Positions 3,975-54,797 of a stretch of 54,797 nucleotides of DNA are shown here, piece by piece; position 1 is the stretch's first letter; each line of letters opens with the position of its first letter. The notes under the pieces were generated by a model, which did no database searches, had not been told where the DNA came from, and worked only from the letters and a program-made list of their open reading frames with translations. The DNA is from Chlorobiaceae bacterium (GTDB taxonomy: Bacteria; Bacteroidota; Chlorobiia; Chlorobiales; Chlorobiaceae), in assembly GCA_013334865.1 (NCBI GenBank), contig JAAXWS010000016.1:1-54797 (forward strand), given 5' to 3'. The translations under genes were made by a program, and so were the position numbers.

Positions 3975-4078
3975 ATTTGCCGTACGGATCTTCCGTTCTG
4001 CCCGCAGACCGTTCAGAGCAGGAGCGGTCCCCGTGACGCACCCCATGCGAACGGGGCGGGTGGGGCGGGGGATCCGTT

Positions 4079-4106
4079 TTGTTTATCCCGTCTCGAGCCA
4101 TATTAT
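4079..4106 (+). promoter_or_regulatory. Promoter candidate for the YgjP-like gene
   Basis: TTGTTT (4079-4084), 16 bases, TATTAT (4101-4106). It places transcription start near 4112 and therefore supports the ATG at 4144 over the GTG at 4033 as the start of the following gene. Confidence 0.4.
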
Positions 4107-4143
4107 TCCGTATCCCGGTTTCGTTTCAACCAGACCTGTCTTC

Positions 4144-4875: not shown

Positions 4876-4953
4876 CGCCGCAGGGTGTTTTCAGCGCGGC
4901 AAGGCTTGCGTAACTTACGTCAAGCACATCCGGAACGCAAAACAGTATGTCCC

Positions 4954-6057: not shown

Positions 6058-6073
6058 TATTGGGGGGAAAAGG

Positions 6074-6183
6074 AAAAGGACAACAAGGACTAAAGGACGT
6101 GAAGGACGAAGATGAAGACAGTGCAATGTCGTATTGCCTTCTTTTTTTGTCCCTGATGTCCTTGCAGTCCTTTACGTCCTTTT
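6074..6183. repeat. Imperfect long inverted repeat of AAGGAC units with a nested terminator
   Basis: The left arm (6074-6107) repeats AAGGAC four times with 2-4 base spacers. The right arm (6149-6183) is the complement in similar phase. Nested inside is GCAAT-gtcgt-ATTGC followed by CTTC and a T7 run (about 6116-6148), a likely terminator for ald. The element lies between convergent genes and could stop transcription from both sides. Confidence 0.55.
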
Positions 6184-6184
6184 G

Positions 6185-6628
6185 CTATGGCTGAAGCAGC
6201 TTGAATCCCGTCGCACTTTCCGGCAGGCGGCGGGCGGTGGCGTTGAGCAGTTCGACAAGGATCACCTCCATAACGTGCCATACTTTTACACCGCTGCGCA
6301 CGCAGCCGGTGACGGAGTTCTCTTCGCGGCCGCAGGTCATGTGCAGGTGCACGACCGGATTGCCTTCGTCGTCGGGGAAGAGGGTGCCGGTGCCGACGAT
6401 CTCGTGAGCGTCATACAGCTCGTGCACCATCGGGTTGACGGGCAAGGCCCGGCTCTGTTCCGGGCCCACCACCAGCCGGCTTCCCCTGTCGGCGCCGCCG
6501 ACCACGTTCAGGAACGCCCGCCCGATTCCCTTCTCCCTGGCGAATCGTTCGATCTCTTCATGGAAGATCTCTCCATCCTCCAGCCTGATGATGAATGTCC
6601 GGCCCAGTGCCGCTTCAGAATATTTCAT
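6185..6628 (-). CDS. PPC (DUF296)-domain DNA-binding-type protein
   Basis: A 147-residue single-domain protein that matches the PPC/DUF296 fold, best known from plant AT-hook proteins and found stand-alone in many bacteria. Recognisable blocks are FIIRLEDGEIFHEEIERFA at the N-terminus, NVVGGADRGSRLVVGP, and GNPVVHLHMTCGRE with the conserved His pair, followed by GCVRSGVKVWHVMEVIL. Bacterial members are trimers, some binding metal through the His residues; the cellular role is not established. It ends at the edge of the AAGGAC inverted repeat and is followed upstream by a small exported protein on the same strand. Confidence 0.8.
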   Translation of the reverse strand: MKYSEAALGRTFIIRLEDGEIFHEEIERFAREKGIGRAFLNVVGGADRGSRLVVGPEQSRALPVNPMVHELYDAHEIVGTGTLFPDDEGNPVVHLHMTCGREENSVTGCVRSGVKVWHVMEVILVELLNATARRLPESATGFKLLQP

Positions 6629-6655
6629 GTCAACGCCGCTCTCTTGCCGTTGGAA

Positions 6656-7138
6656 TTACTTGAAATAGTAACGGAGTCCAAGTGCGCCGTTGAGCCGAAG
6701 GGAGACATAGGGGGCGATATCGACGATCGGGGCGACTTCGGCGAAGAAGTCGAGCGGCGCATCGGCGAACATGTAGCTGATGCCGAGGGGCACCCTCACG
6801 CCGACCCGGGTGTCGCCGTCATCTGCCTTGACACGTCCACCGATGCCATAGTACCAGGGCAGGTTTCCTTTCAGCTCCGGAATGGAGCCTGATGTTTCGT
6901 GGATCAGGTAGTCTGCATGGAACTGGAAGGCGTTGCCGTTCGTGAGGGAGAACGCGAGCGCCGCGTCGACGGCATGGGTGTCGTCGGTCCATTTCTTGAG
7001 GCTGATGCCGGTCGGCTCGCCGACGATGACGCCCACGCCGAATCCGTCTTTGGTTGCAGCTCCGGCATTGGTGGTGCATGCAGCGCAGATGGCCGTAGCC
7101 ACCGCCATGCTCTTCATGGCTTTCAGTCGTGATTTCAT
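6656..7138 (-). CDS. Small exported beta-barrel-like outer membrane protein
   Basis: A 160-residue protein with an N-terminal signal peptide (MKSRLKAMKSMAVATAIC, then a small-residue cleavage region AGAATKDG). The mature part alternates hydrophobic and polar residues with many Gly and aromatic residues and ends in GLRYYFK, a typical C-terminal strand ending in Phe-Lys. This suggests a small outer-membrane beta-barrel of unknown function. The ATG at 7138 gives a proper signal peptide; an upstream in-frame start at 7213 would add an unrelated polar stretch. No operon partner beyond the PPC gene about 30 bases downstream. Confidence 0.65.
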   Translation of the reverse strand: MKSRLKAMKSMAVATAICAACTTNAGAATKDGFGVGVIVGEPTGISLKKWTDDTHAVDAALAFSLTNGNAFQFHADYLIHETSGSIPELKGNLPWYYGIGGRVKADDGDTRVGVRVPLGISYMFADAPLDFFAEVAPIVDIAPYVSLRLNGALGLRYYFK

Positions 7139-12085: not shown

Positions 12086-12734
12086 CCATCAGGTCGGCTT
12101 CACGCACAGCCCTGACGAATGCGGCCATGAGGCCGTGGTCCTTGACGCCGGGAGCGGCTTCCACGCCGCTCGCGGTGTCAACCCCCCAGGGGCGGACCTG
12201 ACGTACCGCTTCCCCGACGTTGTCCGGCCTGAGGCCGCCGGCAAGCAGCGACCACGCGAAATCCCTTGTCCCGTCGAACAGCTCCATGGCCGTCGTCGAT
12301 TCGATTCTCTGCCCGGTCCCGCCCGCCATCCCGGGGTTGTAGGCGTCGAAGAGGAACCAGTTGCAACCGCTCAGCCGGGAGAAATCCTGTACCTCGCGGA
12401 TCACGAAGCCTGGCCCCGGCCTGAACACCCGCATCACTTTCGCAGACGTCACTGCCATCGCCTGTGCCGGCGTGTAGGCTTCTGCATGGAGCTGCGCGAC
12501 CTGCAGGCCGCAGTAATGGCATAGGTCGTTGATCTCTTCCGGTGAGTGTTCGACGAAGACACCGGCGGGAGTGACCAGCGGAGGCAGCTTCGAGATGATC
12601 CTGCGGGCCAAGTCGGGAGCGATTGCTCGGGGGCTCGAGCGGCTGAAGTTGAAGCCGAGGGCATCTGCGCCGGCAACACTTGCGGCAAGGGCGTCTTCCA
12701 TGCTGGTGATGCCGCAGATCTTGATTCTGGTCAT
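12072..12734 (-). CDS. trpF: Phosphoribosylanthranilate isomerase
   Basis: A 220-residue TIM-barrel enzyme for the third step after anthranilate in tryptophan synthesis. The catalytic Cys is in TRIKICGITSMEDA, the catalytic Asp in WFLFDAYNPGMAGGTGQ, and the phosphate-binding end is LLAGGLRPDNV and GVDTASGVE. The start codon overlaps the stop of the upstream hydrolase by 4 bases, indicating translational coupling. It is separate from other trp genes in this window. Confidence 0.95.
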   Translation of the reverse strand: MTRIKICGITSMEDALAASVAGADALGFNFSRSSPRAIAPDLARRIISKLPPLVTPAGVFVEHSPEEINDLCHYCGLQVAQLHAEAYTPAQAMAVTSAKVMRVFRPGPGFVIREVQDFSRLSGCNWFLFDAYNPGMAGGTGQRIESTTAMELFDGTRDFAWSLLAGGLRPDNVGEAVRQVRPWGVDTASGVEAAPGVKDHGLMAAFVRAVREADLMVSGG

Positions 12735-13585
12735 GGGGTCGTTAGGGATGCGTTCGGTGAGTTTGCCATGCTGTCGATCAGGGTGAGGCCTGCCAAAAAC
12801 TCCTCGATCAGTGAACGTACGGTTTCCGGCGTTTCGAAAAAGAAGTTGTGGCCGGCGTCGCTTATCACCTCGAGTCTGGCATTTGGGATCTTCCCGGCAA
12901 GCAGCCTCGAATTTTCGGGGGGAATCAGGCGGTCTTCGCTTCCCGTGACGACCAGCACCGGCACACGGATCTGTTCAAGGAGCCCTTCCGCATCGAACCC
13001 CATCAATGCCTCCATCTGGAATATGGCGCATTGCCGCGTCAGGGCATGTTCGACGCTCACCCGGATGTAGCTCTCGACGCGCTCTTTCTCGCTTTCGACG
13101 AACCTGTCGGAAAAAAGGATCGGCACGAGCATCCTTGCGGACGCTTCCACGGTGAGGCCGGGGTTGGCTACCGCTTCGAATGCCTTTACGGTTAACGGCG
13201 GCGCCGGGATCGCATGCCTGCCTCCATGGCTGGTACAGCCAAGTATCGCTTTCCTGACGCGATCGGGATGCCTCGCGCACAGCATCTGGGCGATCATCCC
13301 TCCCATGGAAACCCCGAACACGTGTGCGGAGTCGATGTCCAGGAAGTCCATAATGCCTGCGGCATCCTCTGCCATGTCGGCGATAGAAAACGGTTCGGCG
13401 GGGAGTGTGCTTTCACCCGAACCTCGGTTGTCATAGACGATCACCCGGAAGCGTTCAGCAAGGGCTGCGGGCAGCGTGCCCCAGAACTCGCGGGTCATGC
13501 CGAAGCCCCCGATAAGCAGCAATGGTTCCCCTGAACCGAGGATGTCGTAGGCGATATCAATGCCGTTTGTTTTCAGCAGGGGCAT
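12731..13585 (-). CDS. Alpha/beta hydrolase, enol-lactonase/esterase-like
   Basis: A 284-residue alpha/beta hydrolase with a complete triad: the nucleophile in FGVSMGGMIAQML, an Asp in VVTGSEDRLIPP, and a His in SDAGHNFFFETPE. LLLIGGFGMTREFW and VIVYDNRGSGES mark the oxyanion strand and following loop. It resembles 3-oxoadipate enol-lactonases and related esterases; the substrate is not predictable. The open frame extends a further 91 codons upstream through the antisense of tRNA-Gln, but MPLLKTNGIDIAYDI at 13585 is the family start. It forms a two-gene operon with trpF. Confidence 0.82.
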   Translation of the reverse strand: MPLLKTNGIDIAYDILGSGEPLLLIGGFGMTREFWGTLPAALAERFRVIVYDNRGSGESTLPAEPFSIADMAEDAAGIMDFLDIDSAHVFGVSMGGMIAQMLCARHPDRVRKAILGCTSHGGRHAIPAPPLTVKAFEAVANPGLTVEASARMLVPILFSDRFVESEKERVESYIRVSVEHALTRQCAIFQMEALMGFDAEGLLEQIRVPVLVVTGSEDRLIPPENSRLLAGKIPNARLEVISDAGHNFFFETPETVRSLIEEFLAGLTLIDSMANSPNASLTTP

Positions 13586-13728
13586 GGCAACAAGGGTTTG
13601 TTGGTGTTTTTCAGCTTTCCGGCAGGTGGCGGTTGCCGCTTGTCGTACCTCGATGCAATGGATGCCATCAGCACAAGGAATATACGACACGATCACGTTC
13701 GGACGAAGTATCCCTAAGGGTGCGCGGG

Positions 13729-13758
13729 TTGTGTTTTTAAACGATTTTTGCGTATACT
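13729..13758 (+). promoter_or_regulatory. Promoter for tRNA-Gln
   Basis: TTGTGT (13729-13734), 18 bases, TATACT (13753-13758), about 25 bases before the tRNA. Confidence 0.45.
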
Positions 13759-13783
13759 TGAAGCCGGTTTTTAACCGGGTCAT

Positions 13784-13855
13784 TGGGGTGTCGCCAAGTG
13801 GTAAGGCATCGGCCTTTGGAGCCGACATTCGCAGGTTCGAATCCTGCCGCCCCAG
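13784..13855 (+). tRNA. tRNA-Gln (anticodon TTG)
   Basis: The acceptor stem TGGGGTG pairs with CGCCCCA. The D arm is GCCAAGTGGTAAGGC. The anticodon stem-loop TCGGC-CTTTGGA-GCCGA gives anticodon TTG, and the T arm is GCAGG-TTCGAAT-CCTGC. The 3' CCA is not encoded. Confidence 0.95.
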
Positions 13856-13862
13856 CAAGAGC

Positions 13863-13904
13863 AGCGGGTGTGCTTGCCGTTATTGGCAAACACACCCGCT
13901 TTTT
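13863..13904 (+). terminator. Intrinsic terminator after tRNA-Gln
   Basis: AGCGGGTGTG (13863-13872) pairs with CACACCCGCT (13891-13900), with an inner TTGCC/GGCAA helix and a T5 run. Confidence 0.9.
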
Positions 13905-13923
13905 ATTTATTGGGGGCCGCTTA

Positions 13924-14058
13924 CCCCCGGCTGAAGCCGGGGGCAATGGAAGAGTGATGTGTTTCCCCGAGCTTCAGCCTCCCATATTCAGGAGGGTTTT
14001 AACCCGACGGACATTCAACTCTTCTATTTTCTCCATTGCCCCGGGCTTCAGCCCGGGG
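13924..14058. repeat. MITE-like element with 27-bp terminal inverted repeats
   Basis: The left end (CCCCCGGCTGAAGCC followed by GGGGGCAATGGA) and the right end (TCCATTGCCCCGGGC followed by TTCAGCCCGGGG) are inverted copies with about two mismatches. Each end is itself a hairpin. The interior contains GGAGGGTTTTAACCCGACGG followed by ACAT, a motif shared with the larger element at 24599-25054. No coding capacity. It sits between two terminators. Confidence 0.7.
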
Positions 14059-14079
14059 AGGCAACCCTCAAGAATACGA

Positions 14080-14126
14080 AAGCAAAAAAGGCATCCAGAC
14101 TGCTGTCGGGATGCCTTTTTTGCTTT
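14080..14126 (-). terminator. Terminator of the metK-ahcY operon
   Basis: AAGCAAAAAAGGCATCC and GGATGCCTTTTTTGCTT form a 17-bp hairpin with A and T runs on both sides, so it can work in either direction. It lies 24 bases beyond the ahcY stop. Confidence 0.85.
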
Positions 14127-14149
14127 TCGAGTGCCTTACTTCTCGCCGA

Positions 14150-15565
14150 TCAGTAGCGATAGTGTTCGGGCTTGTAGGGGCCTTCGACCGGCACGCTGAT
14201 GTAGTCGGCCTGCTCTTTGGTGAGCTTGGTCAGCTTGACGCCGATCTGCTCGAGGTGCAGGCGTGCAACCTCTTCGTCAAGCTGCTTCGGCAGGCGGTAG
14301 ACGTCCACCTTGTAATCGTTCTTCCAGAGTTCGATCTGGGCGAGCGTCTGGTTGGTGAAGGAGTTGCTCATCACGAACGACGGGTGGCCGGTTGCGCAGC
14401 CGAGGTTCACGAGGCGGCCTTCAGCGAGCAGATAGATGCAGTGACCATCTGCGAAGATGTACTTGTCGACCTGCGGCTTGATGTTCAGGCGGGTAACGCT
14501 CGAGTCGGCGTAGAGCTTCTCGACCTGGATCTCGTTGTCGAAGTGGCCGATGTTGCAGACGATCGCTTCATCCCTCATCTGCTTCATGTGCTCGAGGGTG
14601 ATAACATCCTTGTTGCCGGTGGTGGTCACGAAGATGTTGCCCTCCTTGACGGCGATATCCATGGTGGTGACTTCGAAGCCCTCCATGGCGGCCTGCAGGG
14701 CGCAGATCGGGTCGATCTCGGTGACGATCACCCGGGCGCCATAGGTGCGCATGGAGTGGGCGCAGCCCTTGCCTACGTCTCCGTAACCGAGCACGACAAC
14801 CACCTTGCCGGCGATCATGACATCGGTGGCGCGCTTGATGCCGTCGGCGAGCGACTCGCGGCAGCCGTACAGGTTGTCGAACTTCGACTTGGTGACCGAG
14901 TCGTTGACGTTAATGGCAGGGAAGAGCAGTTCGCCTTTTTCCATCATCTGGTAGAGGCGGTGAACGCCGGTGGTGGTCTCTTCGGAGACGCCCTTCATGC
15001 CGGCGGCGACCTTGTGCCAGCGGTTGGTGTCTTCGGCGAAGACATCCTTCAGCTGCTGGTAGAGGGCCTTTTCCTCGGCGTTGCCGGGGACCTTTTCGAG
15101 CAGCGAGGGGTTCTCTTCGATCCTGTAGCCGAGGTGGATCATCAGGGTCGCGTCACCGCCGTCGTCGACGATGAGGTTCGGGCCCAGGCCGCCTTCGAAC
15201 TCCAGGATCTGGCGGGTGCACCACCAGTATTCGTCCAGGCTCTCGCCTTTCCATGCGAATACCGGGACGCCGGCGGCGGCGATGGCCGCAGCGGCATGGT
15301 CCTGGGTCGAGAAGATGTTGCAGCTCGCCCAACGCACTTCGGCGCCGAGGTCGACCAGCGTTTCGATGAGGACGGCAGTCTGGATGGTCATGTGCAGGGA
15401 GCCGGCGATGCGCGCGCCCTTGAGCGGCTTCTGGCCTTCATATTTCTTGCGCGTGGCCATGAGGCCCGGCATCTCTTTTTCAGCGATTTCGATCTCTTTG
15501 CGGCCCCATTCGGCGAGCGAAATATCGGCTACCTTGTAATCGAGCACTGCAGATTCAGTGGTCAT
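14150..15565 (-). CDS. ahcY: S-adenosylhomocysteine hydrolase
   Basis: A 471-residue cytoplasmic NAD-dependent enzyme that splits S-adenosylhomocysteine into adenosine and homocysteine. The NAD-binding loop [18 protein letters not shown] is near residue 250, and [16 protein letters not shown] and the C-terminal [10 protein letters not shown] are standard. The length includes the roughly 40-residue insertion seen in many bacterial enzymes compared with the 430-residue human form. It is the second gene of an operon with metK (78-base gap), so SAM synthesis and SAH removal share one leader RNA. Confidence 0.97.
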
Positions 15566-17098: not shown

Positions 17099-17110
17099 AA
17101 AGAAAGAACA

Positions 17111-17180
17111 GTTGATAGTTGATAGTTGATAGTTGATAGTTGATAGTTGATAGTTGATAGTTGATAGTTGATAGTTGATA
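17111..17180. repeat. (GTTGATA)10 heptanucleotide array
   Basis: Ten perfect tandem copies of GTTGATA, followed directly by about three copies of a related heptamer GGATGGT (to about 17203). It lies 13 bases upstream of the metK -35 box. The same heptamer recurs at 17299-17319 (inverted), 33098-33117 and 43348-43403. Confidence 0.95.
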
Positions 17181-17298
17181 ATGGATGGTGGATGGTGGAT
17201 GGTTGACTAGCGGAGGGCGGCTCTTTCCATCAGATGTCCCATGCCATCACTCGGAAACGCGGATTCCGAAAACCGTTTATCTCTTAATATCTTATAAC

Positions 17299-17319
17299 TA
17301 TCAACTATCAACTATCAAC
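17299..17319. repeat. Inverted (TATCAAC)3 array
   Basis: Three copies of the reverse complement of GTTGATA, just beyond the stop of the nucleotidyltransferase gene. With the array at 17111-17180 it can form a hairpin of up to about 21 bp that loops out the 120 bases between them. No gene is seen in 17204-17298. Confidence 0.9.
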
Positions 17320-17324
17320 TGCTT

Positions 17325-24598: not shown

Positions 24599-25054
24599 CC
24601 CCCGGCTGAAGACGGGGGCAATTGGAAGATGCGACATGAATGCTCTCAATTGCATCGGCTTACCAACTTTCATACACAGGAGAGACCGAAAAGTCGGGAC
24701 GACGGACATAAACCTCTTACATCCTCTTCAGTTGCCCCGGGTTTTAACCTGTTACAAGTAGGAGGGCTTCAGCCCGACGGACATGAAGATCTTGCATGCT
24801 CTTGTGATGCCCCGGGTTTTAACCTGTTACAAGTAGGAGGGCTTCAGCCCGACGGACATGAAGATCTTACATGCTCTTGTGATGCCCCGGGTTTTAACCT
24901 GTTACAAGTAGGAGGGCTTCAGCCCGACGGACATGAAGATCTTGCATGCTCTTGTGATGCCCCGGGTTTTAACCTGTTACAAGTAGGAGGGCTTCAGCCC
25001 GACGGACATGAAGATCTTGCATGCTCTTGTGATGCCCCGGGTTTTAACCCGGGG
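24599..25054. repeat. Repeat element expanded into a 75-bp minisatellite
   Basis: It begins with the same CCCCCGGCTGAAG hairpin as the element at 13924 and ends with GCCCCGGGTTTTAACCC then GGGG. Between them a 75-bp unit (starting GCCCCGGGTTTTAACCTGTT) repeats four times at 24734, 24809, 24884 and 24959, with a partial fifth at 25034. Copies differ by only a base or so (for example CTTGCATG versus CTTACATG). Because 75 is divisible by 3 it leaves a spurious 178-codon open frame. No gene is seen in 24581-25139. Confidence 0.9.
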
Positions 25055-38019: not shown

Positions 38020-39741
38020 ATGATGAGACACCTCTTGCGCTTGCAGATTGTTGCCTTGTGCAGCCTCGTATTGCCAGGCATCCTTCATGCTGCGGCGATA
38101 CCCGATGCGGGAAGCCTCATTCGTCAACTGGAGCAGCAGACGGCGTTTCCGGACAGAAAACCGAAACCGGATGCTGCGGAGCCGAAGGGTGAGGGCCCCG
38201 AAACCGGCACGACCATAACGGTTTCCAGGTTCGTGTTCAGTGGGCATGAAGGGATAGCGACCGACGCGGAGCTTCAGGCGCTGGTTACCGGCTCGGTCAA
38301 CAGAGGCCTTACGATGGGTCAGCTCGATTCGCTGGTGAAGAACGTTTCGATGTGGATCAGGGGGCGGGGCTGGTTTCTTTCCCGCGCATACCTGCCCGAG
38401 CAGGACGTTACTGACGGTGTTGTTGAAATCCGCATAGAACAGGGGAGGGTCGACGGCAGGCTCACCTATTCACCTGACGCTTCGGTCAGGATCCGGCACG
38501 CGCAGTTGAGAGGCATGGGGAACTATGCCATGAGAAACGGAGGGGCGTTGAACATGAAGCGCCTGGAACGTGGCCTCCTGCTGATGAACGACCTCCCCGG
38601 CATCAGGGCGACGGCTATGGTGAGCCCCGGCAGCACGACAGGAACAAGCGCCCTGAAGATCAGTGTGTCGGAAGGGCCGCTGATTGGCGGCACGGTCTGG
38701 GGCGACAATATGAACAACAGGTATACGGGCTCATGGCGAGGGAATGCGCTGCTTTTCCTGAACGACCCGTTGCGGTCAGGCGACCAGGTCGAATCCATGC
38801 TGACCAGCAGCGAGGCGATGTTGCAGGGACGTGTTTCATATGTCTTCCCTCTTTTCTGCGACGGCCTCAAGGCAAGGCTTTCATATACCGGGATGCATTA
38901 CAGCCTTATCTACGGAGAGCTTTCATCGCTGGATTATTCAGGTTACAGCAAGGGCGGGGAGGCCGGTTTGAGCTATCCGCTGCTCAGGACCCGTAACACG
39001 AACATCACCGCGCTGGCTGGTTATGGAGTGCGAACCCTGGTCGACCGTCAGGGTGACCAGGATATCCACGACAAGCTTTCCCGATATGGTACGTTTGGGC
39101 TGAACGGCGACTGGTACGAATCGGTGTCCGGCGAGGCCTATTCGACGTGGAACATCGGCCTGACGACCGGAGTGCTGCATGAGAACATCCCGTCCGCATC
39201 GGTTGATGCCGAAGCGAACGGGACCGTGGGTGGATTCACACGGGTCAATCTCGGCCTTGGCCGAGTGCAGACGATCACCGAGCGAACGACCCTTAAGCTT
39301 GCCTGGAGTTCGCAGGTCGCCTTCGGGAACCTGGACAGCAGCGAAAAGTTCTCCCTTGGAGGACCCAACAGCGTGAGGGCCTATCCTCTGGGGGAAGCTT
39401 CCGGTGACCACGGGCACCTGTTCAATGCGGATTTGCGGTACGCCATTCCCATCCCGTTTTTATGGGGCCGACTGCAGGTTGGCGGGTTTTACGATGCGGG
39501 CAGGATCACCGTACAGAACGATCGCGGGATGGCCCCTCTCGGCACGGCGACCGAACGGAATACCTACTGGCTTCAGGGGGTGGGTGTCGGGCTGACCTAT
39601 TCGAACGGCGGCGGGTTGAGCATCAGGACCACCTGGGCCCGTACGATCGGCGAAAATCCAGGCAGGAGCGTCTCCGGAAACAACTACGACGGCAATCCGG
39701 ACAGGGCAAGATTCTGGGTCCAGGCAGCATACGGGTTTTAA
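38020..39741 (+). CDS. TpsB outer-membrane transporter (ShlB/FhaC/HecB family)
   Basis: A 573-residue two-partner secretion transporter. A signal peptide (RLQIVALCSLVLPGILHAAA) is followed by a Lys/Pro-rich linker, a POTRA domain region (about residues 65-220, with VFSGHEGIATDAELQALVTG and a long LRGMGNYAMRNGGALN segment) and a C-terminal 16-stranded barrel. The L6-loop-type motif reads SLGGPNSVRAYPLGEASGDH, with VRAY where many family members have VRGY. It ends in QAAYGF, a canonical C-terminal barrel strand. It threads a TpsA protein across the outer membrane. The probable substrate is encoded at 48450. The next gene starts 82 bases after its stop on the same strand. Confidence 0.9.
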   Translation: MMRHLLRLQIVALCSLVLPGILHAAAIPDAGSLIRQLEQQTAFPDRKPKPDAAEPKGEGPETGTTITVSRFVFSGHEGIATDAELQALVTGSVNRGLTMGQLDSLVKNVSMWIRGRGWFLSRAYLPEQDVTDGVVEIRIEQGRVDGRLTYSPDASVRIRHAQLRGMGNYAMRNGGALNMKRLERGLLLMNDLPGIRATAMVSPGSTTGTSALKISVSEGPLIGGTVWGDNMNNRYTGSWRGNALLFLNDPLRSGDQVESMLTSSEAMLQGRVSYVFPLFCDGLKARLSYTGMHYSLIYGELSSLDYSGYSKGGEAGLSYPLLRTRNTNITALAGYGVRTLVDRQGDQDIHDKLSRYGTFGLNGDWYESVSGEAYSTWNIGLTTGVLHENIPSASVDAEANGTVGGFTRVNLGLGRVQTITERTTLKLAWSSQVAFGNLDSSEKFSLGGPNSVRAYPLGEASGDHGHLFNADLRYAIPIPFLWGRLQVGGFYDAGRITVQNDRGMAPLGTATERNTYWLQGVGVGLTYSNGGGLSIRTTWARTIGENPGRSVSGNNYDGNPDRARFWVQAAYGF

Positions 39742-39823: not shown

Positions 39824-42800
39824 ATGAATCGTTATCTCATCGGCAAGGGCAGCGAAATGTTCGGAGACAGGTTCCATGCCCTCGCTTCTGCAGTTACGAT
39901 GGCAGCGCTGTTCAACATGACGCTGCTCGTCGATTGGGATGATCCGTTCTGGCCGGATGCAAGGGGTGGCTTTTACCGGTATTTCACCCTGGCCGACCTT
40001 CCGTATGTGACAGCTGCGGAGATGGTTCCTTCCGACCTTGAAACCTATCCTGCATGGTGGCGCCACGGCCGAAAATTCGAAATCGACGAACAGGGGTTCA
40101 CCATGGCGGAAGCGCCGTCGTACGATCCCCGTGAAGGACTTCATCGCGAACCTGTCTGGGTCTACGGGGGATTCGGGGCGCCAGCCGGAGATTATCATCT
40201 GCTGAAAGAGCACCTTCGCCTGACTGCCGAAGCCGTCGAGGCTTTGCGGCCACAGCTTGTAAAGGTCCCTGCAGGACGTCCGCTCGTGTTTCTGCCCGCT
40301 TCGGCTAGCGGGTCGGACCAAAGCCGCTGGGCCGAGTCACGGGGTGCATTGGATCAAGCACTGATCGATGCCGAGCACGAATTGCCTGCCCGACTCTGGA
40401 TCAGGCAGAATCCCGGTTCAACCTTGCTCGATGATCTTTTCGGCGGCAATGGCATTCCGGATGCCGGCGACCGCTTCGGAGCCTCGATTCGAAGATTGGC
40501 CAGCTTCCTGGTGCTCGCTTCGGCCAGCGAGGCCTACTCGCCTGACGAACAGGACCCGTATTTCATGGCGGCCCGTTCCTTCGGCCAGGCAGGTGGTGTC
40601 CGCGCCCTCTTCGCTCCCGTTCCGGAGGCGGTAAGCCTGCCATCCGGCTATCCCGGGTACGGTTATCATTACCGTTGCAGCAAAGGCGTGTGGCAGCAGG
40701 GAGGCTCCGCCGAAACAGTTCAAGGGGTTCCTGATGCCCATCAGGCAACCATGCAGCAGGCCGTCGCCCTGCACCAGCAGGGGGAGATAGCCGGCGCTGA
40801 ACGGCTGTTCAACCAGCTGCTTTGCGCCATCCCTGGGGATGCGGATGCCCTGCATATGCTTGGGGTGATCGATTGCCAGCGGGGCGATTTCGCCGGTGCG
40901 GTCGACCGTATTGCCCGGGCCATTGCCGGAAACCCTCGCAACGCGGCGTACCATTCCGATCTGGGGTTCGCCCTGCAGTTGCTCGGCAGGTTCGAAGAGG
41001 CGCTCGAGCAATACGATCAGGCCCTGACGCTCAACCCGGCCCTGGCGATTAGCCACCTCAACAGGGGCGATGTCCTGACCGAGCTCAATCAGGAGGTCGC
41101 TGCCGCCGAAAGCTACAGCCGTGCCGAGATGATCCTCAGAATCCAGTCGACGGATGCGGAGTCGTTGCATCGGCTCGGATTGCTCGAACGGAGGAAGAAG
41201 CATATGTCCCGGGCGGCTGAGTTGTTCAGCCATGCCGTGATGATCGAGCCGCATCGGCCGGAATGGCATCAGGATCTGGGTATCACCCTGCAGGAACTTC
41301 GGCGGTTCGACGAAGCCCTGCAGAGTTACGACCGGGCACTGGAGATCAATAGCGGCCTGTTGACCGCCCAGCTGAACCGGGGCAATATCCTCAGGACGCT
41401 CAAACGGATGGGTGAGGCTTCGGACAGTGATGAGAAGGCGGCGTTGATCCTCGTGAAGCACCCCGAAGACGCCGAGTCAATGCACCTCCTGGGGATCATC
41501 GAATTCCGCCGCAAACGCTACCGTGAGGCTGTCGTCCTCTTCGACCGTGCCCTCGGGATAGACCCTGCCAATGCCGCCTGCCATTCGGACCGAGGCCTTG
41601 CGTTCCGGGAACTCCGCCAGTTCGGGGATGCGCTTGCCTGTTACGACCAGGCATTGCGTCTCGATCCCGACCTTGCCGTCACAGAGTTGAACCGGGGCAA
41701 TCTCCTCCGGCTGATGAAAAGGAACGTTGATGCCGGCGAGAGCGACCGGCTTGCCGCCGCTCTGCTTGAAAAACACCTTGACGACGCCGATTCGCTGCAC
41801 ATGCTGGGCCTGGTCGAGTACCGCAGGAAAAACCTCGAACGGGCAGTCGACCTGATCGGCCGGGCCATCGAGATCAATCCGCATAACGCAGCGTTCTACT
41901 CCGACCGGGGCTACGCCCTGCAGGACATGCGCTGTTTCGATGCGGCACTGGCGTGTTACGACAAGGCGCTTGCCCTTGATCAGACGCTCGCCATCACCCA
42001 CCTGAACCGGGGCAACGTCCTGCGCGAATTCATGGTCAACGCCCCGGCGCTCGAGTCGTATGCCCGGGCGCAGGAGCTGATCGAACAGCAGCCGCAGACA
42101 GCCGAAAACCTCCATCTTCTGGGCACCATCGCATTCCGTATGCGAAACCTCGAAGCGTCGGTCGACCTCATCGGCCGGGCGATCGATCTGGAACCGGAGA
42201 ACGCCGGGTACTACTCGGACCTTGGGCTCGCCCTGCAGGAAATGACCCGTTACGACGATGCCCTGAGGAATTACGACAAGGCGCTCTCCCTCGATCCGGG
42301 GCTCGAGGTGACCCATTTCAACCGGGCGAACACCTTCAGGGCGCAAAAACGGTTTGATGCCGCCTTCGAGTGCTATGACAAGGCCCTTTCAATAAAACCC
42401 GACTACTGGGACGTCTACTGGAACAAGTCGCTCGACCTGCTGATGATCGGCGATCTCGATCAGGGGTTCGAACTCTACGAGTGGCGCTGGAAGCGCAACA
42501 GCTCCCCGCAGCCGATGAGAAATTTCCATCAACCCGTATGGCATGGCCGTGAGACGTTGGAGGGCAAGGTCATCCTGCTGCACAGCGAGCAGGGCCTTGG
42601 CGACACGCTCCAGTTCTGCAGGTATGTCAGGATGGTCAAGGCGCTCGGACCGACGGTCGTACTCGAGGTGGATCCACCCCTCCTCGAACTGCTCAGGCCG
42701 GTTGATGGCGCCGACATGGTGGTCGCGAGGGGAGATGCGCTGCCGCCGTTCGATACCCATTGCCCGCTGCTGAGCCTGCCCCTTGCGTTCAAGACGAGGC

Positions 42801-43366
42801 TCGAGACCATCCCTTCGGGCGTGAAATACCTGCAGAGCAGCCAGGAAAAGCTCGAAGATTGGGCCCGCCGCCTCGGGCCGCGCACCATGCTCCGCGTGGG
42901 CATCGCCTGGAGCGGACGCGCCGAGCACCTGAACGATCACAACCGCAGCATGACGCTCGCGCCCTTCCTGGAGCAGCTTCCCGAAGGGTTGCAGTATGTC
43001 AGCCTCCAGAAAGAGGTTCGTCCTGCGGACCTTTCCGCGCTGCTGTCGACTGGCCGCATCCTCCATTTCGGGGAGTTGCTCATCGACTACGCAGACACGG
43101 CGGCATTGTGCGACCTGATGGACCTTGTCGTCACGATAGATACGAGCGTGGCCCATCTCGGGGCGGCACTCGGCAAGCCTGTCTGGATCATGCTGCCGTT
43201 CATGCCGGACTGGCGCTGGCTGCTCGACCGTGAAGACTCTCCCTGGTATCCGACGGTGCGCCTCTTCCGCCAGCATGCGGTCGCCGACTGGAGCGAAGTC
43301 TACCGCAGGGTACGCTGCGGCCTGGAGCTGTTCAGGGAGGAGGGGGTGTTGATAGTTGATAGTTGA
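39824..43366 (+). CDS. TPR protein with glycosyltransferase-like domains at both ends
   Basis: An 1180-residue cytoplasmic-type protein (no signal peptide). Residues 1-290 resemble fucosyltransferase-like (NodZ/O-FucT type) folds in their opening MNRYLIGKGSEMFGDRFHAL. Residues about 305-890 are TPRs, arranged as five super-repeats of exactly 105 residues beginning DADALHMLG, DAESLHRLG, DAESMHLLG, DADSLHMLG and TAENLHLLG (base 40838 and every 315 bases). Residues about 910-1175 match a GT9/heptosyltransferase-like domain (HSEQGLGDTLQFCRYVRM and VVTIDTSVAHLGAALGKPVW). Following tpsB, it is a candidate glycosyltransferase for the TpsA, like HMW1C for HMW1. Its last codons lie in the GTTGATA array. 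Confidence 0.8.
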   Translation: MNRYLIGKGSEMFGDRFHALASAVTMAALFNMTLLVDWDDPFWPDARGGFYRYFTLADLPYVTAAEMVPSDLETYPAWWRHGRKFEIDEQGFTMAEAPSYDPREGLHREPVWVYGGFGAPAGDYHLLKEHLRLTAEAVEALRPQLVKVPAGRPLVFLPASASGSDQSRWAESRGALDQALIDAEHELPARLWIRQNPGSTLLDDLFGGNGIPDAGDRFGASIRRLASFLVLASASEAYSPDEQDPYFMAARSFGQAGGVRALFAPVPEAVSLPSGYPGYGYHYRCSKGVWQQGGSAETVQGVPDAHQATMQQAVALHQQGEIAGAERLFNQLLCAIPGDADALHMLGVIDCQRGDFAGAVDRIARAIAGNPRNAAYHSDLGFALQLLGRFEEALEQYDQALTLNPALAISHLNRGDVLTELNQEVAAAESYSRAEMILRIQSTDAESLHRLGLLERRKKHMSRAAELFSHAVMIEPHRPEWHQDLGITLQELRRFDEALQSYDRALEINSGLLTAQLNRGNILRTLKRMGEASDSDEKAALILVKHPEDAESMHLLGIIEFRRKRYREAVVLFDRALGIDPANAACHSDRGLAFRELRQFGDALACYDQALRLDPDLAVTELNRGNLLRLMKRNVDAGESDRLAAALLEKHLDDADSLHMLGLVEYRRKNLERAVDLIGRAIEINPHNAAFYSDRGYALQDMRCFDAALACYDKALALDQTLAITHLNRGNVLREFMVNAPALESYARAQELIEQQPQTAENLHLLGTIAFRMRNLEASVDLIGRAIDLEPENAGYYSDLGLALQEMTRYDDALRNYDKALSLDPGLEVTHFNRANTFRAQKRFDAAFECYDKALSIKPDYWDVYWNKSLDLLMIGDLDQGFELYEWRWKRNSSPQPMRNFHQPVWHGRETLEGKVILLHSEQGLGDTLQFCRYVRMVKALGPTVVLEVDPPLLELLRPVDGADMVVARGDALPPFDTHCPLLSLPLAFKTRLETIPSGVKYLQSSQEKLEDWARRLGPRTMLRVGIAWSGRAEHLNDHNRSMTLAPFLEQLPEGLQYVSLQKEVRPADLSALLSTGRILHFGELLIDYADTAALCDLMDLVVTIDTSVAHLGAALGKPVWIMLPFMPDWRWLLDREDSPWYPTVRLFRQHAVADWSEVYRRVRCGLELFREEGVLIVDS

Positions 43367-43403
43367 TAGTTGATAGTTGATAGTTGATAGTTGATAGTTG
43401 ATA
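43348..43403. repeat. (GTTGATA)8 array at the 3' end of the TPR gene
   Basis: Eight perfect tandem copies. The TPR gene reads GVLIVDS then stop inside it. Because the 7-base unit contains TGA and shifts frame each time, all three frames are closed within 21 bases, so copy number changes would not alter the protein end much. Confidence 0.95.
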
Positions 43404-43529
43404 GGCGGGGGCTTGCAGTTCGATTATCATCGGTTTTATTGGACAGGAGGAACTTAGAAGCTCTCGGGGATGGTTGATGGGGCATGTTCCGAGACGTTAT
43501 TCGCTAAAAACAATAAATCAGTATACATC

Positions 43530-48449: not shown

Positions 48450-51400
48450 ATGAACAGGATTCACAGGATCATATGGTCGGAGATCAAGTCGCGATGGATC
48501 GTGGTTTCCGAGAAGGCAGGAAGCAAGGGCTGCCCGATCCTGACGTTCGGTGCGCTGAGCCTTGCCGCACTCGTCTCGACAGCTCGCCCGGCTATGGGCC
48601 TGGATCCGGGCTCTTTGCCCACTGGCGGTGCGGTCGTTGCCGGAAGCGGAACGATCACGACCGATGGCCTGAAGATGACCGTGAGGCAGAACACCCCGCA
48701 ACTCATAGCGAACTGGTCGAGCTTCAACATCGGTGAAAAAGCCGGCGTTGAGTTCGTCCAGCCCGGTCAAACCGCAACGGCGCTCAACCGCATCAGCGAT
48801 GAGAACCCGAGCGTGATCATGGGCTCGTTGACCTCGAACGGCCAGCTCTTCCTGCTGAACCGCTCCGGCGTAATCTTCGGCCGGACGGCCAGGGTCGACG
48901 TGGGCGGCCTCTTGGCGAGCAGCCTGAACCTGCTGGACAGCGACTTCCTCGCCGGCAGGTACAAATTCACCGGCGAAGGCGGTGCAGGAGCCGTCATCAA
49001 CCGGGGAGAGATTACCGCCAGGCAGGGAGGCGTGGTCGCGCTTATGGCGCCAACAGTATCGAACGAGGGTACCATATCGGCACAGGGGGGCAGCGTGCTG
49101 CTGGCTGCGGCCAACGAGGTGACGCTCGATTTCGGAGGAGACGGCCTCATCAGCTACACGATCGACAAGGGAGCGGTTGACGCCCAGGTGTTGAACTCAG
49201 GCCTCGTCAAGGTAGACAGGGGCATGGTGGTGATGACGGCGCAGGCGGCCGATGCGCTGACGACGGCGGCGGTGAACAACACCGGCATCGTCGAGGCCCG
49301 GACCCTGCAGAACCGGGGCGGCAGGATCCTGCTGCTGGCGGACATGGAGCGGGGGACGACGACGGTTGCAGGCACGCTCGACGCCTCGGCGCCGGAGGGC
49401 GGCGACGGCGGATTCGTGGAGACCTCCGGCGGCAGGGTGAAGATATCGGACGGTACGGTGGTGGATACGCATGCTGTTTCCGGTAGTGCAGGAACCTGGC
49501 TGATCGACCCGGCTGATTTCACCATCGCTTCAGGCAAAACCGGATCAATCAACGGTGGAACACCTTCGGGTGACGTCTCCGGTCAAACGCTTTCTAATGC
49601 TCTCGGTTCGGGCAACGTGACGATCCTGTCGAGCCAGGGCTCAACCGCCAACGGGTACGGCGACATCAACGTCAACGATACGGTGAGCTGGAGCGCGAAC
49701 ACCACGCTGACGCTTACGGCCGCACGGAACATCTGTATCAATGCGCAGATGACCTTGACGGGCAGCTCGAACCTCGCCATGAACCCCGCGACGACCAACA
49801 CGACAGGTGTCGTGACCGATAATTCTATTACCGGCGGTACGGTGCTGGTTGGCATGAACTCTGACGGCACCTTCAAGGGAAAGATCGATTTCTTTCAGGC
49901 TGATGGTGTGACACCTCGATCGGGAACCGGCCACCTCTCGATCGGTGGAACGGGCTGTACACTTGTAAGTTCGCTCTCCGCCCTTCAGGGGATCACTGGC
50001 GGGCTTGCCGGATCGTACGCCCTCGGGGCCGACATCTCCGGTTCAAATTTTACGGCCATCGGGACTACATCGAGCAGGTTTACCGGCCAGTTCGAAGGAC
50101 TCGGGCATACGATCTCGAACCTCGCCATAACAGGCACGACCGGCGTCGGGCTCTTTGGCGCCATTGGGCCATCCGCGACCATCCGCAACCTCATTCTCGA
50201 TCTGGGAAGCTCCACGATCAGCGGCGTTACCTATGTGGGTGGGCTGGTCGGCTACAATACAGGCGGTACGATCAACAACAGCGTGGTGAACGGGGGGACG
50301 TTGACCGCGTCCGGAAACTACGCCGGGGGTCTGGTGGGGTACAATAGCGGAGGGCTCATCATGGGGGCGACCGTGAGGGGATCGACATTGTCAGGATCCG
50401 GTTCGTACCTCGGCGGTCTTGTGGGGGGCAATACTGGGACGGTGAGCGCCTCCAGCGTGACCGACACGAACGTGACAAGCTCCTATGCCGGGAACACCTA
50501 TGCCGGAGGCCTGGCAGGATCAAATTCGGGGACGCTGGCCGGTGTGAGGGTGAGTGGCGGATCGGTAAAGGGCATTACGCATCTCGGCGGCCTGGTGGGG
50601 AGCAACACCGGCACGGTGAGCGGTTCGAGCGTCACCGGCTCAACAGTGACGAGTACGTACAACGCGGATGCCTTCGTCGGCGGTCTTGCTGGCGCCAACT
50701 CGGGGACGCTGACAGGAGTGAGCGTGACGAGTGCGACGGTGAAAGGCAAGAGCTATATCGGGGGCATGGCCGGTACCAACGCAGGGACGATCGTAGACGC
50801 CAGCGTGACGAATGCGACGGTGAACGGCAGTAGCTATATCGGCGGCATGGCGGGCTACAATGCCGGCACCGTGATCGCTTCGGGTGTTACCGATACGAGT
50901 GTGACTGGAACTTACAGTGACTCATATCTCGGTGGTCTGGTAGGGTACAATAGCGGGACGCTGGACAGGGTGAGCGTGACGAATGCGACGGTAAGTGCTG
51001 TGGGTCAGGCTGGCGGGCTTGTTGGGCGCAATGCCGCTACTGGCATCGTTGTCAATTCGAGTGTGACCGGGGGTACGGTTACCGGAGTACAGTATATCGG
51101 TGGCATGGCGGGCTACAATGCCGGCATCCTGAGCGCTTCGAATGTTACCGATGTGACGGTGACGAGTACGTACAACGTTGATCCCAACCTCGGCGGGCTG
51201 GCGGGTTTCAATTCGGGGACGTTGGCCGGCGTGCATGTGACGAATGCTTCGGTAACTGCGGCGGGTCAGTACGTCGGTGGACTGGTCGGAAATAACACGG
51301 GGACGCTGAGCAGCGCGAGCGTGACGAATGCGACGGTGAAAGGCAAAAGCTATATAGGCGGCATGGCGGGCTACAATGCCGGCACCGTGATCGCTTCGGG

Positions 51401-54400
51401 TGTTACCGATACGAGTGTGACTGGAACCTATAACGGGGACTCCCGTATCGGCGGCATTGTGGGTTACAATTCGGGTATGCTGGCGGGCGTGAACGTGACG
51501 AATGCGACGGTAAGTGCTGCGGGTCAGTACGTCGGCGGCATGGTAGGGTATAATAATGGGATGATAACTGCTGCCGATGTGTACGGCGCGACAGTGAGCG
51601 GAAGCAACTATATTGGCGGGCTTGTCGGTAGGAACTATTCACCAGGCAATATCAGCGCCTCGAACGTAACGAATTCGACGGTCAACGGATCGGGTCAGTA
51701 TGTCGGTGGCCTGGTGGGGGACAATACTGGAACCCTGAGCAGCGTGACTGCCAGCGGGACGACGGTTACGGGACATAGTTACGTTGGGGGATTGGTTGGA
51801 AGCAATGGCGGGAACATTGACTCAGTATCACTGACGGACGCGAAGGTGTATGGTTCTGGTACTAATTATGTGGGAGGTTTGGCTGGCCTGAACACCGGTA
51901 CGATCTACAATTCGAGGGTGGCCGGGGGTACGGTGTCCGGAAGTATCAATATGCAGGATATCGGAGGGCTTGTCGGCCGTAATTCTGCGGGTGGCATGAT
52001 CAGCGGATCGGGCGTGAGCGGTACGGCTTTGGCTGGCACTCGCGCTAATGTTGACATTGGTGGACTGGTAGGCCAAAACTTTGCTGCTATCAGCCAATCT
52101 GGTGTGACCAGCGTAACGATTACCGGGACCAATTATATCGGAGGAATGGTAGGCCTGAACGTTTCGGGCGGGACGGTCAATGGCGGAACGGTGACGAATG
52201 CAACCCTGTCGGGGACGAACGCTACGTCTTCCTATATCGGCGGGTTGGTTGGGTATCTCGTCGGCGGCTCGATAACCGGCTCGAGCGTGATCGGTGGTTC
52301 GGTAAAAGGTGCAGGCCAGTATGTGGGTGGACTTGTCGGTGCGATGCTTCCTTTCTCAGGGTACAACTTTACAGGGGCGGCAATCGTCAGCTCGAATGTT
52401 TCCGGTACCCGGGTGAGCGGAAGCGGGAATAATGTCGGCGGGCTTCTTGGGGCAAATGCGGGTTCTCTGTCCGCCGTGAGCGTGACGGACGCAGCCGTTG
52501 CCGGAGTGGGCAACATCGGTGGACTCGTTGGCAGCAACATGGTATACACAACAACCGGTGCGAACTATACAGGAACGATTGTCAGCTCGGGTGTGGTCGG
52601 CGGTTCGGTGAGCGGCGCCGGGCAGTATGTGGGCGGCTTCGCGGGCATCAACAGCAACAGCGTGATCTGCGGATCCATCAGCGTGAGCGGCACTGCGGTG
52701 ACGGGCTCGTACAGCGGGGCAGGATATATCGGTGGCCTGGTTGGCGCAAATACGGGAACGTTGAGCAGTGCTACGGTTACGAGCGCGAGCGTCGCGGGTT
52801 CGACATCGACCAGCGAGATCGGTGGCCTGGTCGGACGGAACAGTGGAGGTACGATAAATGATTCAGGCGTGCTTGGCGGCTCGGTGAGCGGACTCCAGTA
52901 TATCGGCGGCCTGGTCGGCGACAACAGTTCGGGAGTGCTGAGCGGTGTAAGCGTGAGCGGCACGACGGTATCGGGCAGTTTCAGCGGGTCCGGTTATATC
53001 GGCGGCCTTGCAGGGTACAACGCCGGGACGCTGACAAACGTAGCCGCTACCAGTGTGGCCGTGTCAGGAGCATCGACGACCGACCGGGTCGGCGGGCTTG
53101 TGGGAAGGAACAGCGGGGTCATTGACGCCGGCAAGGTCCTGGGTGGCAGCGTGAGCGGGCGTAATGACATCGGCGGCCTCGTCGGGTATCAGGATGGTTC
53201 GGCCATCAGGAGCTATGCCACCTCCACGGTGACCGGCTCCAGCGATGTCGGCGGGCTGGTCGGCGGAAACTACGGTTCAGTCAGCCAGAGCTATGCGATC
53301 GGCACGGTCTCTGGAAGCGAGAATGTCGGCGGACTTGTCGGACTTCAGGGCACCTCTTCAAGCATTGTCGACAGCTATGCAGCAGGACTCGTCAGGGGCA
53401 CGAATTCCGTCGGCGGGCTTGCCGGACGTGTTACCGCCGGCACCATCTCGAGGTCGTATGCACTTGGAGTCGTCAACGGCAGCTCTTTTGCCGGGGCACT
53501 GATCGGCCAGCGAAGCGCTGGGGTGACGATCGCGAACACCTGTTACAATACCGATATCAATGTCGGGATGAACGGCGTCGGCGGCACGAGCCCTGATCTG
53601 ACCGGCGTGACTGGTGCGGACAGTTCAGCCTTGAGGAGTTTTTCCACCTATTCCGGTTATGATTTCACATCCGTCTGGAATATCGATTCGACCCAAACCA
53701 ATACCAACCTCGGGTATCCCTACCTTAGAGGGTTGGATGTTGCCGTGGGGGTTTACGTGGTGCCTTCAGGCAGCAGCGTCTACGGTGACCAGCCAACGGT
53801 CCCATCCTATATTTACGACTCTGCGGCCAATGGCAACGGAACCGATATTGCCAACGCCAGCCCGACCGGTACTCCCGTTTGGACAACGTTACCCGGTCAA
53901 ACGTCACCCGCAGGCAGTTATGACCTGGCCTATGTCAGCGGAATCACCCTTGGGACTCCCGGATATTGGCTCTATCTGGGTTTGCCAGGAACCTGGACGG
54001 TCCAGAAGGCTCCGCTTGGTGTCACCGTATCGGGAGTCTATAGCGGGTCGACGACGATCGTGCCGACGAGTTTCAGCGTCAATGGGCTGAAGAACAGCGA
54101 GACGATCGATAGCCTGACTTCAGCGACGTTGCATTCTAAGGAGGTGAGCGCGAACGGAAGCAACTATGTGACCTCGCTTTCGATCGGGAGCGGATCGGCG
54201 TCGATGGACAACTACGCGTTGAGCCTTGCCTACAACGCCACCGTTGGCACGACCAGGAACATGGCGACGCTCAGCCGGAAGGCGCTGAACCTTACGATCA
54301 GCAAGACGTACGATGGCAATGCCGAGTTTGAGAAAACGGATACCTATTCGCTTGACGGTTACTGCCAGAATGACAGTGTCGTTCTGAACTCGGGCATTGG

Positions 54401-54797
54401 TGCGGTATGCAGCAAGGATGCCGGGTCATACACTAGCTTCGTGAGTGGCGGGTTTGCGCTGGACAACAACAACTATACCCTTGATGGTGGCGCTGTCAGT
54501 GCGACGATCGGGAGGGCGAGCGCGACGGTGACGGGCAACAGCGCCAGCGGGACCTACAGCGGGGTTGCGCAGGGCGTGAGCGGGTTCACGGTGACGGGCC
54601 TGGTGAACAATGAGAGCGCGAGCATGCTGACGAGCCCCACTGCAAGCGGAGCCACGGGGACCAACGTCGGGAGCTACTCGAACACGGTGAGCGGCAACAT
54701 GGCCGACGGGAACTACAACCTGACCTTCGTCAATGGTACGCTGACGATCGGGAGGGCGAGCGCGACGGTGACGGGCAACAGCGCCAGCGGGACCTAC
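48450..54797 (+). CDS. Giant TpsA exoprotein with GLUG and MBG/YDG repeats, 3' end outside the window
   Basis: An open frame of 2116 codons without a stop. Residues 1-50 are an extended signal peptide (ESPR: MNRIHRIIWSEIKSRW, then VVSEKAGSKG) followed by a hydrophobic core (LTFGALSLAALVSTARPAMG). Residues about 55-330 are a haemagglutination-activity secretion domain with GQLFLLNRSGVIFG; the usual NPNG is here NRSG. Residues about 590-1700 hold about 30 GLUG-like repeats (YVGGLVGYNTGTL-type), consistent with a long beta-helix. Residues about 1945-2015 form a YDG-like unit (KALNLTISKTYDGN) and 2022-2101 an 80-residue MBG-like unit that begins to repeat at the window end. It is presumably secreted by the TpsB at 38020 as an adhesin-like surface fibre. 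Confidence 0.88.
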   Translation, partial: MNRIHRIIWSEIKSRWIVVSEKAGSKGCPILTFGALSLAALVSTARPAMGLDPGSLPTGGAVVAGSGTITTDGLKMTVRQNTPQLIANWSSFNIGEKAGVEFVQPGQTATALNRISDENPSVIMGSLTSNGQLFLLNRSGVIFGRTARVDVGGLLASSLNLLDSDFLAGRYKFTGEGGAGAVINRGEITARQGGVVALMAPTVSNEGTISAQGGSVLLAAANEVTLDFGGDGLISYTIDKGAVDAQVLNSGLVKVDRGMVVMTAQAADALTTAAVNNTGIVEARTLQNRGGRILLLADMERGTTTVAGTLDASAPEGGDGGFVETSGGRVKISDGTVVDTHAVSGSAGTWLIDPADFTIASGKTGSINGGTPSGDVSGQTLSNALGSGNVTILSSQGSTANGYGDINVNDTVSWSANTTLTLTAARNICINAQMTLTGSSNLAMNPATTNTTGVVTDNSITGGTVLVGMNSDGTFKGKIDFFQADGVTPRSGTGHLSIGGTGCTLVSSLSALQGITGGLAGSYALGADISGSNFTAIGTTSSRFTGQFEGLGHTISNLAITGTTGVGLFGAIGPSATIRNLILDLGSSTISGVTYVGGLVGYNTGGTINNSVVNGGTLTASGNYAGGLVGYNSGGLIMGATVRGSTLSGSGSYLGGLVGGNTGTVSASSVTDTNVTSSYAGNTYAGGLAGSNSGTLAGVRVSGGSVKGITHLGGLVGSNTGTVSGSSVTGSTVTSTYNADAFVGGLAGANSGTLTGVSVTSATVKGKSYIGGMAGTNAGTIVDASVTNATVNGSSYIGGMAGYNAGTVIASGVTDTSVTGTYSDSYLGGLVGYNSGTLDRVSVTNATVSAVGQAGGLVGRNAATGIVVNSSVTGGTVTGVQYIGGMAGYNAGILSASNVTDVTVTSTYNVDPNLGGLAGFNSGTLAGVHVTNASVTAAGQYVGGLVGNNTGTLSSASVTNATVKGKSYIGGMAGYNAGTVIASGVTDTSVTGTYNGDSRIGGIVGYNSGMLAGVNVTNATVSAAGQYVGGMVGYNNGMITAADVYGATVSGSNYIGGLVGRNYSPGNISASNVTNSTVNGSGQYVGGLVGDNTGTLSSVTASGTTVTGHSYVGGLVGSNGGNIDSVSLTDAKVYGSGTNYVGGLAGLNTGTIYNSRVAGGTVSGSINMQDIGGLVGRNSAGGMISGSGVSGTALAGTRANVDIGGLVGQNFAAISQSGVTSVTITGTNYIGGMVGLNVSGGTVNGGTVTNATLSGTNATSSYIGGLVGYLVGGSITGSSVIGGSVKGAGQYVGGLVGAMLPFSGYNFTGAAIVSSNVSGTRVSGSGNNVGGLLGANAGSLSAVSVTDAAVAGVGNIGGLVGSNMVYTTTGANYTGTIVSSGVVGGSVSGAGQYVGGFAGINSNSVICGSISVSGTAVTGSYSGAGYIGGLVGANTGTLSSATVTSASVAGSTSTSEIGGLVGRNSGGTINDSGVLGGSVSGLQYIGGLVGDNSSGVLSGVSVSGTTVSGSFSGSGYIGGLAGYNAGTLTNVAATSVAVSGASTTDRVGGLVGRNSGVIDAGKVLGGSVSGRNDIGGLVGYQDGSAIRSYATSTVTGSSDVGGLVGGNYGSVSQSYAIGTVSGSENVGGLVGLQGTSSSIVDSYAAGLVRGTNSVGGLAGRVTAGTISRSYALGVVNGSSFAGALIGQRSAGVTIANTCYNTDINVGMNGVGGTSPDLTGVTGADSSALRSFSTYSGYDFTSVWNIDSTQTNTNLGYPYLRGLDVAVGVYVVPSGSSVYGDQPTVPSYIYDSAANGNGTDIANASPTGTPVWTTLPGQTSPAGSYDLAYVSGITLGTPGYWLYLGLPGTWTVQKAPLGVTVSGVYSGSTTIVPTSFSVNGLKNSETIDSLTSATLHSKEVSANGSNYVTSLSIGSGSASMDNYALSLAYNATVGTTRNMATLSRKALNLTISKTYDGNAEFEKTDTYSLDGYCQNDSVVLNSGIGAVCSKDAGSYTSFVSGGFALDNNNYTLDGGAVSATIGRASATVTGNSASGTYSGVAQGVSGFTVTGLVNNESASMLTSPTASGATGTNVGSYSNTVSGNMADGNYNLTFVNGTLTIGRASATVTGNSASGTY
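50841..51427 (+). repeat. 71-bp identical direct repeats inside tpsA
   Basis: Bases 50841-50911 and 51357-51427 are identical, 516 bases (172 codons) apart, within the GLUG region. Recombination between them would delete or duplicate 172 residues in frame. Confidence 0.85.
54503..54797 (+). repeat. Start of a 240-bp tandem repeat of the MBG-like module
   Basis: Bases 54503-54557 recur identically at 54743-54797 (55 of 55), 240 bases or 80 codons apart. The second copy is cut by the window end, so more modules probably follow. Confidence 0.85.

Follow-up and report, generated by a model that had tools for sequence, protein, structure and literature searches.

The window analysed here is the whole of a 54,797-nucleotide contig from a Chlorobiaceae bacterium (JAAXWS010000016.1), and all positions refer to its forward strand. 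An intact open reading frame at 39824..43366 (+), with 1180 codons and zero internal stops, encodes a TPR glycosyltransferase of 1180 aa. A full-length relative in another genome of the genus, G114, shares 69% identity with it over 1181 alignment columns and has the identical start, MNRYLIGKG. The protein begins with a domain of residues 1-293 (39824..40702, +) that resembles NodZ-type fucosyltransferases at residues 2-60 and whose activity is uncertain. It continues, after an additional TPR-like stretch, with a block of five 105-residue units of three TPRs each at residues 339-863 (40838..42412, +). It ends in a catalytic domain (42407..43363, +) that AlphaFold2 (AF2), Foldseek and sequence motifs predict to be of the GT9 type with a GT-B fold; genes with this combination are called TPR-GT9 genes below.

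The gene lies 82 bp downstream of tpsB (38020..39741, +), which encodes an outer-membrane two-partner-secretion (TPS) pore (ShlB E=1.3e-16, POTRA_2 2.3e-13), and this adjacency is kept in G114. The wider order of DoxX, ABC ATPase, tpsB, glycosyltransferase, peroxiredoxin, riboflavin synthase-type gene, MgsA-type gene and one further ORF is also kept there with one extra gene between, the last genes of the shared order being identified from position and sequence start. Further along the window, separated from tpsB by several housekeeping-type genes and preceded by a TolC-type gene, a tpsA-like exoprotein gene (48450..54797, +; TPS domain PF05860, 113.9 bits) runs off the contig end. Its product has an extended signal peptide (ESPR, 4.7e-07), Glug repeats (6.2e-39) and an NPXG domain (4.9e-20), and is a candidate substrate of the glycosyltransferase. 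No TPS domain was found in G114, although the contig there breaks off where a tpsA would be expected, just past an ORF placed like the TolC-type gene.

One other TPR-GT9 gene, and no more, is present in the genome. This sister gene (contig C16) is the last in a row of tpsB, tpsA and glycosyltransferase and begins 19 bp behind the tpsA of that row. The G121 genome has a TPR-GT9 gene placed between tpsB and tpsA. The three TPR-GT9 genes with an N-terminal extension (the window gene, its G114 counterpart and the sister gene) are all TPS-linked. The linked examples are few, namely two in this genome, one in G114 and one in G121, and two of these are orthologues. No contig of G229 or G032 carries both a TPR-GT9 gene and tpsB.

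The initial annotation had described the TPR arm as five super-repeats of constant length, grown by duplication of a three-TPR unit, and both statements hold. The in-frame blocks start at exactly 40838, 41153, 41468, 41783 and 42098, with zero indels. Each unit consists of TPRs of 34+34+37 residues (Pfam TPR_1 E=8.9e-64), and pairwise identity among the five is 35-51%. At an offset of 105, 188/420 positions of residues 339-863 are identical (44.8%), whereas 2000 shuffles reached at most 53, with a mean of 32. At the DNA level, identity is 53% at offset 315 versus 22-28% at neighbouring offsets, which makes the duplication an old one. In a tree of the units, each of the five in the G114 gene pairs with its own counterpart in the window gene, so the five-unit arm is older than the split of the two species. 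The sister gene carries the super-repeat in two copies, the second of which groups with unit 5. Among about 30 TPR-GT9 proteins in the genus, a period of 104/105 residues was found in only these three; most of the others show a plain 34-residue period or multiples of it. Offset identities, period comparison and unit tree all support growth of the arm from a duplicated unit.

A GT9-like fold had also been proposed for the C-terminal domain, and structure prediction bears this out. The AF2 model, built from 31 sequences, is confident (pLDDT 90.6, pTM 0.90) and shows a GT9-type GT-B fold. Foldseek placed it closest, among solved structures, to the GT9 protein 3tov, then to WaaF (1psw), TibC (4rap) and WaaC (2h1h). 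Both GT9 motifs, GxGD and DTxxAH, are found, as EQGLGD at residue 922 and DTSVAHL at residue 1106, and PDWRW lies at residue 1128. Q-G-x-G-D and D..H-L are invariant across the 31-row alignment of C-terminal domains, and the Asp of Q-G-x-G-D would match the residue that has been described as the catalytic base of TibC. The domain does not reach the Pfam GT9 cut-off (PF01075, 19.5 vs 22.0 bits), and PDB sequence searches with the domain or its profile returned no relative. Scanned alone, it matched GT9 as its sole family and no GT41, and GT41 (PF13844) was not among the best 25 families listed for the full protein; as no GT41 domain was found, the product is not a member of the HMW1C family. 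We take the C-terminal domain to be a working GT9-type transferase, GT9-type by its predicted fold. The genome has a gene for RfaE domain II, which makes ADP-heptose a possible donor.

The N-terminal domain had been likened to NodZ/POFUT-type fucosyltransferases, and this likeness stands for its first part. HHalign against an alignment of five NodZ-type proteins gave 95.2%, for residues 2-60 only, with shuffled and reversed versions of the domain giving 0.1-0.2%, and a two-sequence profile of the domain matched a NodZ-type protein at E=3.8e-10. In NodZ itself (an alpha-1,6-fucosyltransferase, PDB 2hhc, PF05830), the matching region is the first Rossmann stretch. The second half does not follow: the NodZ motifs FLxTD and SxF(S/T) were not found in the domain, and of three HxR matches to HVRxxN none is at the NodZ position, where the sequence reads RPLVFLPASASG. 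Catalysis by this domain is doubtful because these motifs are missing. No Pfam, NCBIfam or PDB family was found for it, Pfam NodZ included, and its AF2 model, predicted from two input sequences, has a pLDDT of 31.5. By sequence comparison, the relationship to NodZ is a real one of limited extent: the first part of the domain, if not more, is related to NodZ, and its role as a second active transferase is at most putative. A scan of genome contigs for the domain returned solely the G114 relative, and nothing was found in viral contigs or plasmids.

We considered whether the sister gene begins with the same NodZ-like domain and rejected this, as its first 285 residues contain a GT2-like stretch with YLDDDNWW where the window gene is NodZ-like. 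With 17.0 bits, this GT2 match stays under the Pfam cut-off of 23.3 bits. The N-termini are modular, NodZ-like in one gene and GT2-like in the other, on a shared TPR-GT9 chassis in one genome. Weak PDB matches of both N-terminal domains were to immunoglobulin chains and were judged to be chance.

The protein belongs to a larger group that NCBI annotates as 'Tetratricopeptide repeat-containing glycosyltransferase family protein'. The genus, Azospirillum, Burkholderia and viral contigs all have relatives with a TPR array directly before this C-terminal domain. The annotated proteins of Azospirillum and Rhodovastum share the TPRs and the same C-terminal domain (about 44-51% identical among the matches listed), but they are shorter, and those inspected have no N-terminal module. 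The family is large in the genus, with 23 matches in G229, arranged in arrays. The initial annotation had called the joining of two sugar-transfer domains and a TPR arm in one chain unusual, and this has to be tempered, since the genus has relatives in which one chain holds two or three TPR-GT9 modules. Such single proteins with three or two tandem modules are encoded at L069 8383-13755 in G032 and at L074 1813-5367 and L076 8916-12392 in G229. Also in G229, one contig (L073 1-20000) has ten head-to-tail TPR-GT9 genes whose TPR lengths differ. Relatives of the C-terminal domain are further encoded on 37 IMG/VR viral contigs (L100-L136), many with TPRs.

Genes for secreted proteins or for secretion lie near some family members outside the window. 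Some plasmid relatives are about 4.5 kb from flagellin, others next to giant calcium-binding proteins, in one case together with type I secretion genes, and a C39-type (C39-peptidase) ABC transporter is near some TPR-GT9 genes of the genus. At L078 of G229 (3492-6926 and 12185-14569), a TPR-GT9 gene, a GT41 TPR gene and an RTX calcium-binding protein lie close together, which suggests that two types of TPR glycosyltransferase might serve one secreted protein.

Three known systems offer comparisons. FlmG of Caulobacter crescentus is a cytoplasmic flagellin O-glycosyltransferase that binds its substrate through the TPR part and glycosylates it before it is exported (PMC7591256). Its architecture is like that of the window protein, with TPRs first and then a C-terminal GT-B domain of about the same size; it differs in its length of 596 aa, in having no extra N-terminal domain, and in placing pseudaminic acid on flagellin. 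HMW1C/HMW2C and EtpC are TPS third partners, and HMW1C builds mono- and di-hexoses (PMC3983070). Like the window and sister genes, they stand beside tpsA/tpsB, and those enzymes are cytoplasmic and modify a huge repetitive TpsA adhesin. HMW1C is however GT41-type with an alpha-helical AAD domain, where the window protein has TPRs and GT9, and its target is N-x-S/T, a motif without clear enrichment in the window TpsA. TibC and AAH (BAHT) are heptosyltransferases of exported autotransporters, and the catalytic base of TibC has been described (PMC4358343, PDB 4rap). TibC is close in fold to the predicted C-terminal domain but has a beta-barrel, a thumb, an iron finger and a dodecameric assembly and no TPR, with about 12% identity in structural alignment; the model of the C-terminal domain has no beta-barrel, and a TPR arm precedes it.

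We favour the reading, with a probability of roughly two in three, that the product of the window gene is a soluble protein glycosyltransferase of the cytoplasm and forms the third partner of a TPS system. It is drawn by analogy with FlmG, whose TPR part binds flagellin, with HMW1C as a TPS third partner, and with TibC. The TPS linkage of the extended genes, the likeness of the C-terminal model to TibC and the relatives near flagellin and RTX genes speak for it; the distance of tpsA from tpsB in the window, the negative TPS-domain result in G114 and the TPR-GT9 genes of G229 and G032 that share no contig with tpsB speak against it. The arm of five three-TPR units would bind the unfolded, repetitive TpsA chain ahead of Sec export. 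The C-terminal GT9-type domain would then move sugar from a nucleotide-sugar donor to many Ser/Thr or, less likely, Asn side chains, and the modified TpsA would exit via TpsB. The N-terminal module may be an interchangeable add-on: it would either act as a second transferase, lengthening the glycan after the first sugar, or serve for binding without being active. The mode of action would resemble that of HMW1C, TibC and FlmG, with a different combination of catalytic domain and arm and with the exchangeable module added. The earlier suggestion, a processive or two-sugar enzyme with a long repetitive substrate, is reasonable as a guess, with the window TpsA as the candidate substrate.

The composition of this TpsA was inspected as well. 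Ser and Thr make up 26% of its residues from 48450 to the contig end, and this richness was dropped as specific evidence because TpsA proteins without a linked glycosyltransferase are equally rich. HMW1C-like N-glycosylation of TpsA is unconvincing, as N-x-S/T occurs 41 times versus 32.9 +/- 4.9 expected. Among 17 TpsA compared, after the data had been seen, GLUG density is highest in the two that share contigs with the genome's extended glycosyltransferases.

The closeness of the C-terminal fold to the LPS enzymes WaaF and WaaC could instead point to a glycosyltransferase for a cell-surface polysaccharide (LPS or exopolysaccharide), in which the TPR arm assembles a biosynthetic complex and the TPS linkage is incidental. 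Some Azospirillum relatives do lie amid such polysaccharide-type genes, namely GT4, GT2 and nucleotide-sugar dehydrogenase genes. We consider this unlikely, since TPS genes adjoin both TPR-GT9 loci of the genome and also the loci of G114 and G121, since no polysaccharide gene was found among the neighbouring genes scanned in the window, and since relatives occur near flagellin and RTX genes. Quite improbable, in our estimate, is a protein that has lost sugar transfer in its terminal domains and serves TpsA as a TPR chaperone: the invariant motifs and the intact predicted fold of the C-terminal domain argue against it, even though the N-terminal domain is without the later NodZ motifs and TPR arms commonly bind unfolded substrate.

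A two-sugar enzyme is a sub-case of the third-partner reading, and its probability overlaps with it. The C-terminal domain would start the TpsA glycan and the N-terminal domain would add a second sugar, fucose-like in this protein and another one via the GT2-like module of the sister. That one genome sets two different glycosyltransferase-like modules on a shared chassis fits this idea, as does the building of di-hexoses by HMW1C. The missing second-half motifs of NodZ, the likeness limited to residues 2-60, the low pLDDT of the N-terminal model and the sub-threshold GT2 match of the sister all weigh against it, and we regard it as less likely than not. More far-reaching, and doubtful, is the picture in which TPS third partners are built on an FlmG/TibC-like TPR-GT9 chassis, with swappable NodZ-like and GT2-like modules giving a different two-sugar glycan to each TpsA adhesin of a single cell and with the super-repeat arm matched to GLUG-type repeats.

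Most descriptions of glycosylated TPS adhesins come from pathogens whose enzymes are HMW1C proteins of the GT41 type. If the third-partner reading is true, TPS third partners arose more than once, in this case with a TPR-GT9 enzyme in a green-sulfur-bacterial lineage, and the principle of FlmG, by which a TPR arm picks an exported substrate, extends to adhesins. No report tying a TPR-GT9 enzyme to TPS was found in the open-licence literature. The paired genes of this genome, with a shared chassis and different N-terminal modules, would make it possible to test directly if the sugar is determined by the module, and the exact 105-residue units could act as a built-in ruler for the way in which a TPR arm follows a repetitive chain.

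Short tandem repeats were noted at other places in the window. A heptamer array, (GTTGATA)8.1 at 43348..43404 (+), overlaps the stop codon of the TPR-GT9 gene and replaces the last residues of the protein relative to G114. Two more GTTGATA arrays lie at 17110-17206 and 17296-17320. Such arrays occur in about 17 places in the genome and many times in G229, with few or none in most congeners, G114 included; the reversed control of this search tells nothing, since reading GTTGATA backwards gives a rotation of the same heptamer. Downstream of the RNase Y gene, at 24700-25049, a 75-bp unit is repeated 4.7 times with 96% identity.
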